Shown here: positions 36,565 through 40,772 of the stretch, one piece after another
How positions within the stretch are numbered: the stretch's first letter is position 1
How the letters are laid out: each line of letters opens with the position of its first letter
Origin: Humidesulfovibrio sp.
GTDB taxonomy: Bacteria > Desulfobacterota > Desulfovibrionia > Desulfovibrionales > Desulfovibrionaceae
Direction of reading: 5' to 3'
NCBI RefSeq assembly: GCF_030689645.1
Contig: NZ_JAUYFU010000020.1
Location: 1 to 64,000 of the forward strand
Length of the DNA: 64,000 nucleotides
The notes under the pieces: model-generated
Told to the model about the DNA's origin: nothing
Seen by the model: only the letters and a program-made list of their open reading frames with translations
Database searches by the model: none
Position numbers and translations under genes: made by a program

Positions 36565-37368
36565 TCAGTTCCAGAGCAGGCGCACGGCGTCGCCCCGGCG
36601 CAGGCCGAGGGCCTCTGCCGCAGAGGCCTGGTTGGCCGCAAGTTCAAGGAAGCCCTGGCTGCCCGCCAATAGGCCTATCTCGCCGGGGCCAAGGTCCGCA
36701 TAGGTATGCACGGGCAGCACGCCCCGGCGCTGGCCCCAGGGCATGCGCAGCCAGGCGGGCGGCTTGGGCGGGGCGAAGTTGGCGCGCAGGGAGAGCAGGC
36801 AGTTGCCGTAGCGGTCCACGTGCAGCACGCGGACGTCCACGCCGCAGGGGCCGCAGGACGGATCGGCCCAGGCCGGGCGTTCAATGTCCGTGCGGTCCAT
36901 GGGCAGGCCCAGGCCCGACATGGACTCGCCATGGGCCAGCCGGGCGGCCAGCGGCGCGAACACGTCGCGGCCATGAAAGGTGGCCGAGGCCTCATACTGC
37001 TGGGCGGCGAGAGAAAGATCATAAACCTGGGCCGCAGCCAGGCCGGGAGTGAAGAGCAAAAGGCCCAGCAGGCCGTTGTCCGGGGCCAGGAAATCCTGCC
37101 CGCCCGCCTCGGTCTCGATGTGTGCGCCGATGATGCGCCGGGTGGAGCCCACGCCGGGGTCCACCACGCACACGAACACCGCGTTGGACGGAAAGTGCAG
37201 TGCGCTGGCCGCCAGGAAAAAGGCCGCCTGATCCACGGCAAAGGGCTCCACCTGGTGGGTGATGTCGAGAATCTGCGCGCCGGGTGCGTTGCGGGCCAGG
37301 GCTGCGCGCAATTGGCCTGCGTAAGGGTCCGCAAGGCCGAAGTCGGAAAGCAGGGCGAAGGGCCGCAT
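36565..37368 (-). CDS. SAM hydroxide adenosyltransferase (DUF62/SAM hydrolase)
   Basis: The protein has 267 residues. ALLSDFGLADPYAG at the N-terminus, VVDPGVGSTRR, FLAPDNGLL and FHGRDVFAPLAARLA are the conserved blocks of the DUF62 family, related to fluorinase but using water or hydroxide to split S-adenosylmethionine into adenosine and methionine. A CGPCGVDVRVLHVDRYGN segment starts the C-terminal beta domain. The length is normal. Its start overlaps the stop of the yitT gene by one base (TGATG), so it is coupled to it. Why cells hydrolyse SAM this way is not clear. Confidence 0.9.
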   Translation of the reverse strand: MRPFALLSDFGLADPYAGQLRAALARNAPGAQILDITHQVEPFAVDQAAFFLAASALHFPSNAVFVCVVDPGVGSTRRIIGAHIETEAGGQDFLAPDNGLLGLLLFTPGLAAAQVYDLSLAAQQYEASATFHGRDVFAPLAARLAHGESMSGLGLPMDRTDIERPAWADPSCGPCGVDVRVLHVDRYGNCLLSLRANFAPPKPPAWLRMPWGQRRGVLPVHTYADLGPGEIGLLAGSQGFLELAANQASAAEALGLRRGDAVRLLWN

Positions 37369-38255
37369 CAGTATTCCTTCCGGCCGGAAAATCCCTGGCC
37401 CAGCACGTTGAACCCGGAACCCATGATGAGGAACGCGGCCGGGTCGATCTCGTAGACCAGCTCCTCCAGGCGCTTGACCTCAAGATTGTTCAGCATGACG
37501 AGCACCACCTGCTTCTCCTCCCCGCTCCAGCCTCCGCGCGCCATGAGCATGGTGGCTCCGCGGCCCAGGCGGTGCAGCACCGACTGCACCACGGCGGCGG
37601 GCGAGTTGGAGATGACGAGGGCCATGCGCCGCTCGCTGAACATGGACAGGCAGGCGTCGGTCACCCAGCCCACAAGGAAGTTCATGGCCACTGAGTACAG
37701 CACGGCCTCAAGCTTCATGGTGGCGAAGCCGATGGCGAACACGCCAAGGTTGAACAGGAACTCGAAACGGCCGATGGGCATGCCCATACGCTCGCGGACG
37801 GCAACGGCCAGGATGTCCGCGCCGCCGGTGGAGCCCATGGACCGCAGCGCGATGCCGATGCCCGCGCCCAGCGTAACGCCGCAGGCGATCACCGCCAGCC
37901 AGGGGTCGGTGACGGGCAGCACGTAGTGCATGCGCTCGACGAGCACGCTGGTGGCGGCCATGCCGTACAGGCTGTAGAGCACGAAGCGGCGGCTGACCAT
38001 GTACCAGCCCAGAACCATGATGGGCAGATTGAGCAGGAAGTACCACACGCCGGCGTCCAGAGCCGGTATGAAGTGAAACCCGATCAGCGCCAGGCCGGAG
38101 ACGCCGCTGCTGAGCAGGCCGTGGGGCACGGCCACGCATTTGATGGCAAAGGCCACAAGAAAAGATCCCACAGTGAGCAGGAACAGGTTCCAGGGAACCG
38201 TGAAGGCGTAGCGGCGCAGGCTGCGGCGCAGGGAATCGGGGTTTGCGGTCGTCAT
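37368..38255 (-). CDS. YitT family membrane protein (DUF161, DUF2179)
   Basis: The protein has 295 residues. The first two thirds hold about five or six membrane helices with conserved Gly-rich segments (KCVAVPHGLLSSGVSGLALI; RSMGSTGGADILA). The C-terminal soluble part (ALVISNSPAAVVQSVLHRLG, then MLNNLEVKRLEELVYEIDP) is the DUF2179 regulatory domain. YitT proteins are widespread inner-membrane proteins of unproven transport function. This is the first gene of a four-gene minus-strand run and ends with a one-base overlap onto the SAM hydrolase start. Confidence 0.88.
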   Translation of the reverse strand: MTTANPDSLRRSLRRYAFTVPWNLFLLTVGSFLVAFAIKCVAVPHGLLSSGVSGLALIGFHFIPALDAGVWYFLLNLPIMVLGWYMVSRRFVLYSLYGMAATSVLVERMHYVLPVTDPWLAVIACGVTLGAGIGIALRSMGSTGGADILAVAVRERMGMPIGRFEFLFNLGVFAIGFATMKLEAVLYSVAMNFLVGWVTDACLSMFSERRMALVISNSPAAVVQSVLHRLGRGATMLMARGGWSGEEKQVVLVMLNNLEVKRLEELVYEIDPAAFLIMGSGFNVLGQGFSGRKEY

Positions 38256-38393: not shown

Positions 38394-38738
38394 CTATAGG
38401 CTGTGCAACATGCGCGAAACGCTCAGGCACTCTGCATGATAGGCGCAGTCGCCCTGATCGCAGTAGCCCTCGCCAGCCCTGCCGAAGCAGTCGAAGTGCC
38501 CCCCGGAGCGCTGCTCAAGGCGCACGCTCTCCACGCGGGCCAGCATGGCTTCGCGGCTGGTCATACGCTTGGCGGGCGTTTTGGCGGAGGTCTTCAGCGC
38601 CGGGGCTTTCGCCGGGGTTTTCGTGGCCGGGACAGCGGCCTGGATCTTTTTGGACGGGGCAACCGCCTTGGGGGCGCTGGAGGCCTTTTGCGTCTTGCTT
38701 GACGAGGTTGCCGCAGTCTTCTTCATGCTTGCGCTCAT
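38394..38738 (-). CDS. Small basic protein with histone-H1-like tail and Cys4 motif
   Basis: The protein has 114 residues from the ATG at 38738, which has AAGGAG ten bases upstream. Residues 1 to about 65 are rich in Lys, Ala, Pro, Ser and Thr, with repeated KTPAK-like units, like bacterial histone-H1-type nucleoid proteins. The C-terminal part has the pattern C-x8-C-x4-C-x5-C with a preceding His (HFDCFGRAGEGYC, then DQGDC, then AYHAEC), which could bind zinc or iron. I do not recognise the family. A DNA-associated role is an inference from charge and composition. The gene stands alone on the minus strand and is divergent from purDE. Confidence 0.75.
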   Translation of the reverse strand: MSASMKKTAATSSSKTQKASSAPKAVAPSKKIQAAVPATKTPAKAPALKTSAKTPAKRMTSREAMLARVESVRLEQRSGGHFDCFGRAGEGYCDQGDCAYHAECLSVSRMLHSL

Positions 38739-38936
38739 GCTGCTTCCACTCCTTTTATTCTGGCGACTATTGGTATTCAGCATTAGAATACTTGATCCTG
38801 CGAAGGATGCAAGACCATTTGAAAGAGAATTCGTGTTTGAAACGTGGCGCCGGGGGGCGGCGCTCGCGGCGCCGCCTTGCCAAAGCCGCTTGTTTTCTCT
38901 ATTTCAGGAACACGAAAACGCAAATGGAGTCACCGC

Positions 38937-40772
38937 ATGAATGTGCTTGTCATCGGTTCTGGCGGCAGGGAACATGCCCTGTGCTGGAAGCTATCCAAGA
39001 ATCCCGGAGTGGACAAGGTCCTGGCCGCGCCCGGCAATGGGGGCACCAACGAGGTGGCCCAAAATGTGGACGTGAAGGACGACGACATCGAGGGCTTGCT
39101 GGCCCTCGCCAAGGCCGAGAACGTGGGCCTTGTGGTTGTTGGGCCGGAGGCTCCGCTGGTTGCGGGCATCGCCGATGCCTGCGCGCGGGAGAACATCCCC
39201 TGCTTCGGGCCGGACGCCTTCGCCGCCCAGCTTGAGGGCAGCAAGGCCTTTGCCAAGAACGTCATGCGCGATGCGGGCGTGCCCACAGCGCCCTTCGGAG
39301 TGTTTGACGACGCCGAGGAGGCCAGGGTTTATGTGAAGAGTCACGGCGCGCCGCTGGTGGTCAAGGCCGATGGCCTGGCCGCAGGCAAGGGCGTTGTCGT
39401 CGCCAAGACCGTGGAGGAAGCCCTTGAGGCCATCGACGACATGATGGTGAAGAAGAGCTTCGGGGCGGCTGGCGCGCGCATCGTCATCGAGGACGCCCTG
39501 ATGGGCGAGGAGGCCTCGTTCCTGGCCTTTTGCGACGGCGTGAACTTCGCGCTCCTGCCCTCGGCCCAGGACCACAAGGCCGCGTTCGACGGCGACACCG
39601 GCCCCAATACGGGCGGCATGGGCGCGTACAGTCCGGCCCCGGTGCTGCCGGAGTCCAAATACGCCGAAACCGCAGAGCTGTGCATCCGCCCCATTTTAAA
39701 GCGCCTGGCCGAACTGGGCCATCCCTTCAAGGGTGTGCTGTACGCCGGGCTCATGTTCACCAAGAGCGGCCCCATGGTGCTTGAGTACAACGTGCGCTTC
39801 GGCGATCCCGAATGTCAGCCCCTGCTCATGCGCCTGGACGCGGACCTTGTTCAGATCATGCTGGCCTGCGCGGCCGGGCGGCTTACGCCGGACATGGTGC
39901 GCGTGCGGCCCGAGACGGCGCTCTGCGTCGTGGTGGCGGCGCCAGGCTATCCCGGCTCCTATCCCAAGGGTATGGAGATTTCCGGCCTGGCCGAGGCCGA
40001 TGCGCTCTCCGGCGTGAAGGTTTTCCAGGCAGGCACCAAGGCCGTGGACGGCAAGGCCGTCACCAGCGGTGGCCGGGTGCTGGGCGTCACGGCCCTGGGG
40101 TCCACGCTGGCGGAGGCCAAGGCCAAGGCCTATGAGGCCGTTGCCAAGGTTGGCTTCGACGGGTGTTTTTTTCGCCGCGACATCGGCGACAAGGGCATTG
40201 CCCGAAACTATAATCCTAAGGAGAAGACAATGACCAAAGTTGCCGTTTTCATGGGAAGCGCATCCGACGAAGACCTGATGAAGCCCTGCGCCGAGACCCT
40301 GGCCAAGCTCGACATTCCCTATCTGTTTACCGTGACGAGCGCCCACCGCACCCCGGAGCGCACCGAGCGGCTGGTGACCGAGCTTGAGGCTGCGGGCTGC
40401 CAGGTGTTCATCTGCGCCGCGGGCATGGCCGCGCACCTGGCCGGAGCCGTGGCCGCGCGCACCACCAAGCCCGTGCTTGGCGTGCCCCTGGCCGCCTCGC
40501 CCCTGGGCGGCATGGACGCCCTGCTCGCCACGGTGCAGATGCCTCCGGGCTTCCCCGTGGGCACCCTGGCCCTGGACAAGGCCGGAGCCAAGAACGCCGC
40601 CTGGCTGGCCGCGCAGATCCTCGCCCTTTCCGACCCGGCCCTGGCCCTGCGCCTGAAGAAAGAGCGCGCCGAGTTCCTGCCTGCGGTGGAAAAAGCCGCC
40701 GCCGCAGTGGAGCAGGCCGACGCCGAGCGCCGCGCCCACAAAAAGGACAAGAAAGACAAAAAGGACAAATAG
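38937..40772 (+). CDS. purDE: PurD-PurE fusion protein
   Basis: This is a single 611-residue frame. Residues 1 to about 424 are phosphoribosylamine-glycine ligase (PurD): [22 protein letters not shown], the ATP-grasp segment [30 protein letters not shown] and the C-terminal [11 protein letters not shown]. After a linker of about nine residues, PurE (N5-CAIR mutase) follows: [34 protein letters not shown] and [20 protein letters not shown] Lys-Asp repeat ends the protein. The ATG at 38937 has TGGAG upstream. No stop codon separates the two enzymes, yet PurE's own ATG and AAGGAG are intact (see next entry). Both act in de novo purine synthesis. The stop overlaps the moaA start by one base. Confidence 0.9.
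40218..40223 (+). promoter_or_regulatory. Internal Shine-Dalgarno sequence for purE
   Basis: AAGGAG lies six bases before the in-frame ATG at 40230, inside the PurD-PurE coding frame. Spacing and sequence are ideal, suggesting that free PurE is also translated from the same mRNA. Confidence 0.7.
40230..40772 (+). CDS. purE: PurE, likely also made from an internal start
   Basis: N5-carboxyaminoimidazole ribonucleotide mutase, 180 residues if translated from its own ATG. It rearranges N5-CAIR to CAIR in purine synthesis. The active-site SAHRTP and GSxSD-type loops are present. The glycine-rich loop reads [10 protein letters not shown] where class I enzymes usually have AGGAAHLPG-like sequence. 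The C-terminus carries a Lys-Asp rich tail ([11 protein letters not shown]) encoded by a short tandem repeat. Whether the free form exists besides the PurD fusion is an inference from the internal ribosome-binding site. Confidence 0.55.

Follow-up and report, generated by a model that had tools for sequence, protein, structure and literature searches.

A small Humidesulfovibrio protein joins a histone H1-like tail to a widespread and conserved four-cysteine module

Introduction

PhaF of Pseudomonas is a granule and nucleoid protein with a histone H1-like tail that belongs to a storage or starvation setting, and proteins of the HupB type are nucleoid proteins in which an HU fold is combined with a tail. 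WhiB-type proteins have the cysteine pattern C-xn-C-x2-C-x5-C, and WhiB, FNR and IscR, each in its own way, show redox-type sensing that alters nucleic-acid binding. The H1-like protein AlgP, which binds DNA, is reported to be required for polyphosphate granules to be evenly spaced (PMC9239181).

In this study we describe a protein of 114 residues encoded in a stretch of 64,000 nucleotides (the window) of a Humidesulfovibrio sp. genome (contig NZ_JAUYFU010000020.1, positions 1 to 64,000). It carries the Lys/Ala/Pro-rich tail by which AlgP/PhaF-like proteins are recognized, and this basic, Ala/Pro-rich stretch of low complexity resembles the tails of the two Pseudomonas proteins, whose setting is storage or starvation. 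However, the AlgP tail is reported as C-terminal whereas the tail of the window protein is N-terminal, and the head of the window protein is a four-cysteine (Cys4) module. An HU domain was not matched by Pfam in the window protein at E up to 10. As in the Fe-S loops of the WhiB and endonuclease III types, the four cysteines of the module end in C-x5-C, although the middle spacing is x4 in the module and x2 in those loops; the window protein, with spacings of x8, x4 and x5, thus departs from the WhiB type, and neither the PDB profile search nor Foldseek gave a sequence or structure match to WhiB or endonuclease III. Most relatives carry a domain of the Rho_N (PF07498) or SAP (PF02037) kind before the Cys module. 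The window protein lacks the first helix of this domain and matches neither Pfam model, and the Cys4 module lies outside these domains.

Results

The gene and its surroundings

The features of the locus are the following:
37368..38255, minus strand: next downstream gene, on the same strand, presumably for a YitT-type membrane protein; it also adjoins the relative in L036-L039
38394..38738, minus strand: coding sequence of the 114-residue protein, stop codon included (ORF listing and relatives)
38397..38564, minus strand: conserved module, residues 59-114, with helix 61-79, Cys loop and helix 101-113 (relatives and model)
38427..38489, minus strand: Cys84 to Cys104, C-x8-C-x4-C-x5-C, putative metal site (invariant columns in relatives)
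38565..38738, minus strand: H1-like tail, residues 1-58, rich in Lys/Ala/Pro/Thr/Ser (composition; predicted without secondary structure)
38749..38754, minus strand: ribosome-binding-site-like AAGGAG, 11-16 nt before the ATG (read from the sequence)
38938..40772, plus strand: divergent gene whose frame runs on into the next gene (ORF listing), which we take to be purD running on into purE

Judged from sequence comparison, the window gene is real. Its frame runs on the minus strand from an ATG at 38738 to a stop codon at 38394-38396. A longer form of 129 residues is possible from an upstream ATG in the ORF listing; we prefer the shorter one because AAGGAG precedes the ATG at 38738 and because several relatives (L037, L039, L120) have similar starts of the MSxMK type. 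No sigma-70-type promoter came out of the promoter scan, and the two terminator-like sites were weak. In L036, L037 and L039, too, purD lies next to the relative. In the window contig purD has no stop before purE (junction near 40200-40230) and purE keeps its own RBS-like site and ATG, while in L036 and L037 a stop codon ends purD at the junction.

One clear paralog was found in the same genome with the last 56 residues as query (56% identity, E 3e-16). This copy (L187, on contig C8) lies directly downstream of an Hsp20 gene with a gap of 56 nt, and farther downstream on the same strand, past a frame of 79 codons, there is by eye a UspA-like gene. A third match, on C107, was dropped as weak (E 0.345); the largest ORF listed around it is by eye a flavoprotein/ferredoxin-like frame.

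Tail and module of the window protein

A preliminary description made from the letters of the DNA had proposed a Lys/Ala/Pro/Thr-rich tail with KTPAK-like units joined to a C-x8-C-x4-C-x5-C motif, and both are borne out: the units lie within residues 1-58, and Cys84, Cys93, Cys98 and Cys104 follow the pattern exactly. The residues K/A/P/T/S/R account for 83% of positions 1-65. An AlphaFold2 model of the protein is of modest confidence (mean pLDDT 64.1), with block means of 50-60 over residues 1-60, and its first helix begins at residue 61.

Six relatives (L036-L040, L120) share the tail-plus-module design. When the window gene was compared with them (L037 begun one residue late), 87 silent and 74 non-synonymous codon changes were counted in 324 codon comparisons of the module, and 57 silent and 207 non-synonymous ones in 326 comparisons of the tail. 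On these counts the module is conserved, and the tail keeps mainly its composition. Since six relatives have the design in common and their codons change in this pattern, it goes beyond chance.

The preliminary description also knew of no named family that combines such a tail with four cysteines, and our searches agree. Pfam (E up to 10) and PADLOC gave no match to the window protein, and the best values in NCBIfam (E 4.3) and PHROGs (E 0.058) represent nothing real. Nor did Pfam or NCBIfam yield a model for the module. When PDB sequences were searched with the family profile, the single match was to subunit O of photosystem I (E 2.5), and Foldseek returned no chain for the window model and four chains, all with E above 6, for a typical member. 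In the literature on SAP/Rho_N proteins, the Cys motif and the glycogen synthase link, no description of the family was found among the papers listed, as judged by titles and the starts of abstracts.

At E up to 1 the Pfam Trefoil model was touched by 16 of 54 members, the best match having E 0.0011, and one could think of a disulfide-rich exported protein of that kind. However, Trefoil domains are defined by six cysteines and the module has four, the window protein itself has no such match, no signal peptide was seen in it by eye and its tail is basic, and some relatives are fused to kinases. We therefore set the Trefoil matches aside as chance likeness and regard an exported protein as extremely improbable.

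A conserved and widespread Cys4 module

The last ~47 residues form the conserved module, L-I-R-x-I-Q-x-x-E-G-N-x-x-C-F...C-x-Q-x-x-C-x-W-R-x-D-C. Searching for homologues with the Cys pattern was successful: a 23-row profile found the module in 87 of the 297 genomes sampled from the phylum and in 68 of 198 genera, and a two-row profile found it in 33 of the 119 genomes that represent the taxonomic family. Genome contig records gave 52 module loci, and their titles name Desulfovibrionales, other former deltaproteobacteria, Gammaproteobacteria, Gallionella, Nitrospirae and Omnitrophica. One of them (L087) is titled Polarisedimenticolaceae, a doubtful placement because a Sedimenticola record (L086) has exactly the same target. 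Since seeds such as FDCF and CDQ served to find these 52 loci, conservation among them is partly due to selection by the search. One IMG/VR contig matches the family, and phage records gave no match to a hand-typed query. A member is also found on a Leptospirillum ferrooxidans plasmid predicted to be mobilizable (NC_006909.1, 23781-23957).

For a closer view 100 loci were fetched, chosen from 53 rows of the family search and more than 100 rows of the phylum search. All four cysteines are kept in 99 of them (95 by pattern, 4 by eye), a number that flatters the module because many of the weakest matches were left out, stronger ones being favoured and kinase-like long frames also omitted, and because the profile itself favours cysteines. 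In the exception, L146, only two cysteines are left; Cys1 and Cys3 are lost together, both replaced by Tyr, which fits either one metal site shared by the two or the decay of this copy. Among the 95 pattern-readable loci the first spacing is 8 in 48, 7 in 31 and 6 in 16. The C-x5-C end usually contains W/F/Y-R, and the conserved pattern has no CxxC knuckle of the Zn-ribbon kind. The family pattern can thus be written as C-x6-8-C-x4-C-x5-C, preceded by E-G-N/H-x-x-C-F/Y and usually with Q between Cys2 and Cys3. The window protein agrees with this pattern, with G-G-H where most relatives have E-G-N. The histidine upstream of the cysteines to which the preliminary description drew attention is indeed present (GHFDCF), but it is not a conserved ligand, since among the 95 relatives 78 have Asn there and 11 have His. 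Taken together, the alignments show a module that is conserved in sequence and near-constant in spacing across several phyla.

Different N-terminal parts before one module

Domain architectures were compared in 141 loci, after 11 had been dropped whose last 60 residues were identical to those of another locus; the set includes the paralog L187 and not the window locus. A two-helix, Rho_N/SAP-like helix-extension-helix (HeH) domain precedes the module in 104 loci: 100 have HeH alone, two HeH with a C-terminal H1-like tail and two HeH with an N-terminal tail. Twelve loci have no HeH but an N-terminal tail, nine a Cys domain of the SHGxCxxC type and 16 none of these, although some of the 16 hold a weak or partial HeH (L103, L179-L182, L188, L192), and L115, counted as a tail without HeH, retains part of one (score 11). 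H1-like tails therefore occur in 16 of the 141 loci, 14 at the N-terminal and two at the C-terminal end. In L068, L071, L072, L078, L080, L082, L136, L141 and L143 a domain of the CxxC...SHGLCxxC type replaces HeH, and the first Cys spacing is x7.

Of 54 members scanned with Pfam at E up to 1, 19 match Rho_N (best 3.8e-6) and two match SAP. The model of a typical member has helices at 3-12 and 22-32, with block pLDDT of 86-88 over residues 1-30 and low confidence, 56-72, in the Cys loop. Its Foldseek match to the N-terminus of E. coli Rho is weak (E 7.7), and the two structures superpose with Z 3.0 and an rmsd of 3.5 over 43 residues. The window protein, with one helix in its model and no Pfam match, departs from the two-helix arrangement, and its six tail-bearing relatives score no HeH. 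In seven loci of the same taxonomic family (L028-L032, L034, L035) the module forms the C-terminal end of a frame 477-523 codons long; three of these frames were read over their whole length, and both of the two scanned with Pfam are PAS-HisKA-HATPase kinases with HeH and module at the C-terminal end.

A FastTree phylogeny was built from 141 modules of 47 residues each, with L146 omitted and the window protein included. In this tree the 19 members of the window's family that lack HeH group in one clade (support 0.915) nested in a 32-member clade (0.982) that also holds glgA-linked HeH forms of this family, and the same two groups appear under three other rootings. The H1-like tail is present in 12 of the 19 and absent from L041, L163, L170, L172, L173, L175 and L178. 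On this evidence the tail of the window lineage is a local replacement of HeH. The simplest history would be that a glgA-linked gene copy lost helix 1 and that a tail was gained in most lines, a course that 47 residues cannot prove. The tail might instead be low-complexity drift without a role, so that the module alone acts, and the free divergence of its codons and the seven tail-less relatives are in line with this. However, the Lys/Ala/Pro composition is kept among the relatives of the window protein, L115, L154 and L197, which belong to other families, have such tails too, and L067 and L069 have them at the opposite end, and we think drift unlikely.

Glycogen and stress genes as neighbours

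The 141 loci have 948 neighbour genes at a distance of up to four genes. The GlgA cluster touches 22 of the loci, against an expectation of ~0.3 (948 genes, one glgA per roughly 3,000 genes; kinship of loci is ignored, and the glgA-linked loci are partly interrelated). A motif search re-found 21 of the 22, and in 13 of these glgA is adjacent on the same strand with gaps below 160 nt; L169, the locus missed by the motif, is also adjacent with a small overlap. Five loci that belong to the window's family (L169, L176, L179-L181) have the order glgA-module-glgB, and five family f39 genomes (L125, L126, L128, L138, L139) have module-glgA. Three gammaproteobacterial loci (L067, L069, L077) show glgA-large gene-module; glgA lies on the opposite strand in L061 and L079, and L140 has the order module-GH57. 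Counting glgA, glgB, glgC-type and GH57 branching enzyme genes, motifs placed an alpha-glucan gene within four genes of 27 of the 141 loci. In the other 114, some of them cut by contig ends, the motifs found none, and glycogen therefore need not be the core function. The glgA gene is present in 240 of 297 genomes of the phylum, mostly as a single copy.

Hsp20 adjoins the module gene in four loci (L065, L081, L175, L187; three confirmed by Pfam), Usp-type genes are near five, and in five f16 loci (L135, L154, L188, L192, L197) a ribonucleotide reductase gene, presumably of class II, lies directly upstream. All ten neighbours chosen for checking match the expected Pfam families (GlgA, branching enzymes, GlgC-type, Hsp20, Usp, ribonucleotide reductase). 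These surveys of gene order show that module relatives sit in or around glycogen synthesis genes far above simple expectation and that others lie beside Hsp20, Usp and ribonucleotide reductase genes.

Possibly the protein, like AlgP or PhaF, is a storage-granule tether; its module would bind glycogen or its enzymes while HeH or the tail binds DNA. The alpha-glucan neighbours would suit such a tether, as would the H1-like tails at different ends in several lineages, among them L067 and L069, where glgA lies two genes away, and the example of AlgP makes it thinkable. Against it, the Pfam hits of 54 members include no carbohydrate-binding match, and no glycogen gene lies near the window gene or its paralog: the single glgA of this genome is on C21 and the module copies are on C101 and C8, as glgA is on C3 and the module on C2 in the sister genome G029. 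We consider the tether quite unlikely.

Discussion

The Cys end of the window protein is, from these comparisons, more than the preliminary description had seen in it, namely a widespread module that usually follows a Rho_N/SAP-like domain and has glycogen and stress genes as neighbours. Both N-terminal kinds in the family, HeH and the H1-like tail, point to nucleic acid. As two different grips, HeH and a basic disordered tail, surround one head, we infer that DNA or RNA is what the family works on, with the Cys4 head as the functional constant. The best reading is that of a small nucleic-acid-associated protein, probably with one metal centre (Zn or Fe-S) and a link to storage or stress. We consider it rather likely that the window protein belongs, as a derived member, to a so far unnamed family of small proteins, in which an N-terminal part of a nucleic-acid-binding type is joined to the Cys4 module and for which metal centre, nucleic-acid grip and storage or stress role would follow.

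In such a protein the four cysteines would hold one metal centre, either Zn or a 4Fe-4S cluster, that folds the loop between two helices, which would be irregular without it. DNA or RNA would be held with little specificity by HeH or by the tail, and in the window protein the tail would supply the DNA contact instead of HeH. Under storage or stress conditions the protein might act as a nucleic-acid-associated accessory or regulator, and the Cys centre may make it responsive to redox state or metal.

How far the centre is a sensor can be weighed from the same comparisons. The Cys4 module may be a redox switch in which a 4Fe-4S cluster or disulfides sense oxygen, nitric oxide or sulfide and alter nucleic-acid binding. 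The lack of a Zn-ribbon-type knuckle and the W/F/Y-R within the C-x5-C end agree with this, as do the fusion to histidine kinases and the stress-gene neighbours, and the Cys spacing of WhiB and endonuclease III resembles that of the module. On the other hand, the module also occurs in a record titled Glaciecola (L057), an aerobic genus, L146 has kept only half of its cysteines, and AlphaFold cannot place a metal; a switch is thus a real possibility that falls somewhat short of probable. A plain structural Zn knuckle in a constitutive nucleoid or RNA-binding accessory that senses nothing is a possible, if tentative, alternative. It would suit the very small size with one centre and the retention of cysteines while the first spacing varies, but kinase fusions and stress-gene neighbours suggest a conditional role and favour a responsive over a purely structural centre.

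In conclusion, we characterized a family that has no Pfam or NCBIfam model that we could find, yet is present in about three of ten sampled genomes of one phylum. It might be possible that these proteins are a widespread, undescribed class of redox- or metal-responsive nucleic-acid proteins that couples glycogen storage and stress to the nucleoid, with HeH and H1-like tails as interchangeable grips around a Cys4 sensor, although we hold so far-reaching a reading to be doubtful. The link of the Cys4 family to glycogen storage and stress can be tested, and the natural pairs, with HeH or an H1-like tail on the same head, would allow the role of basic disordered tails to be asked.
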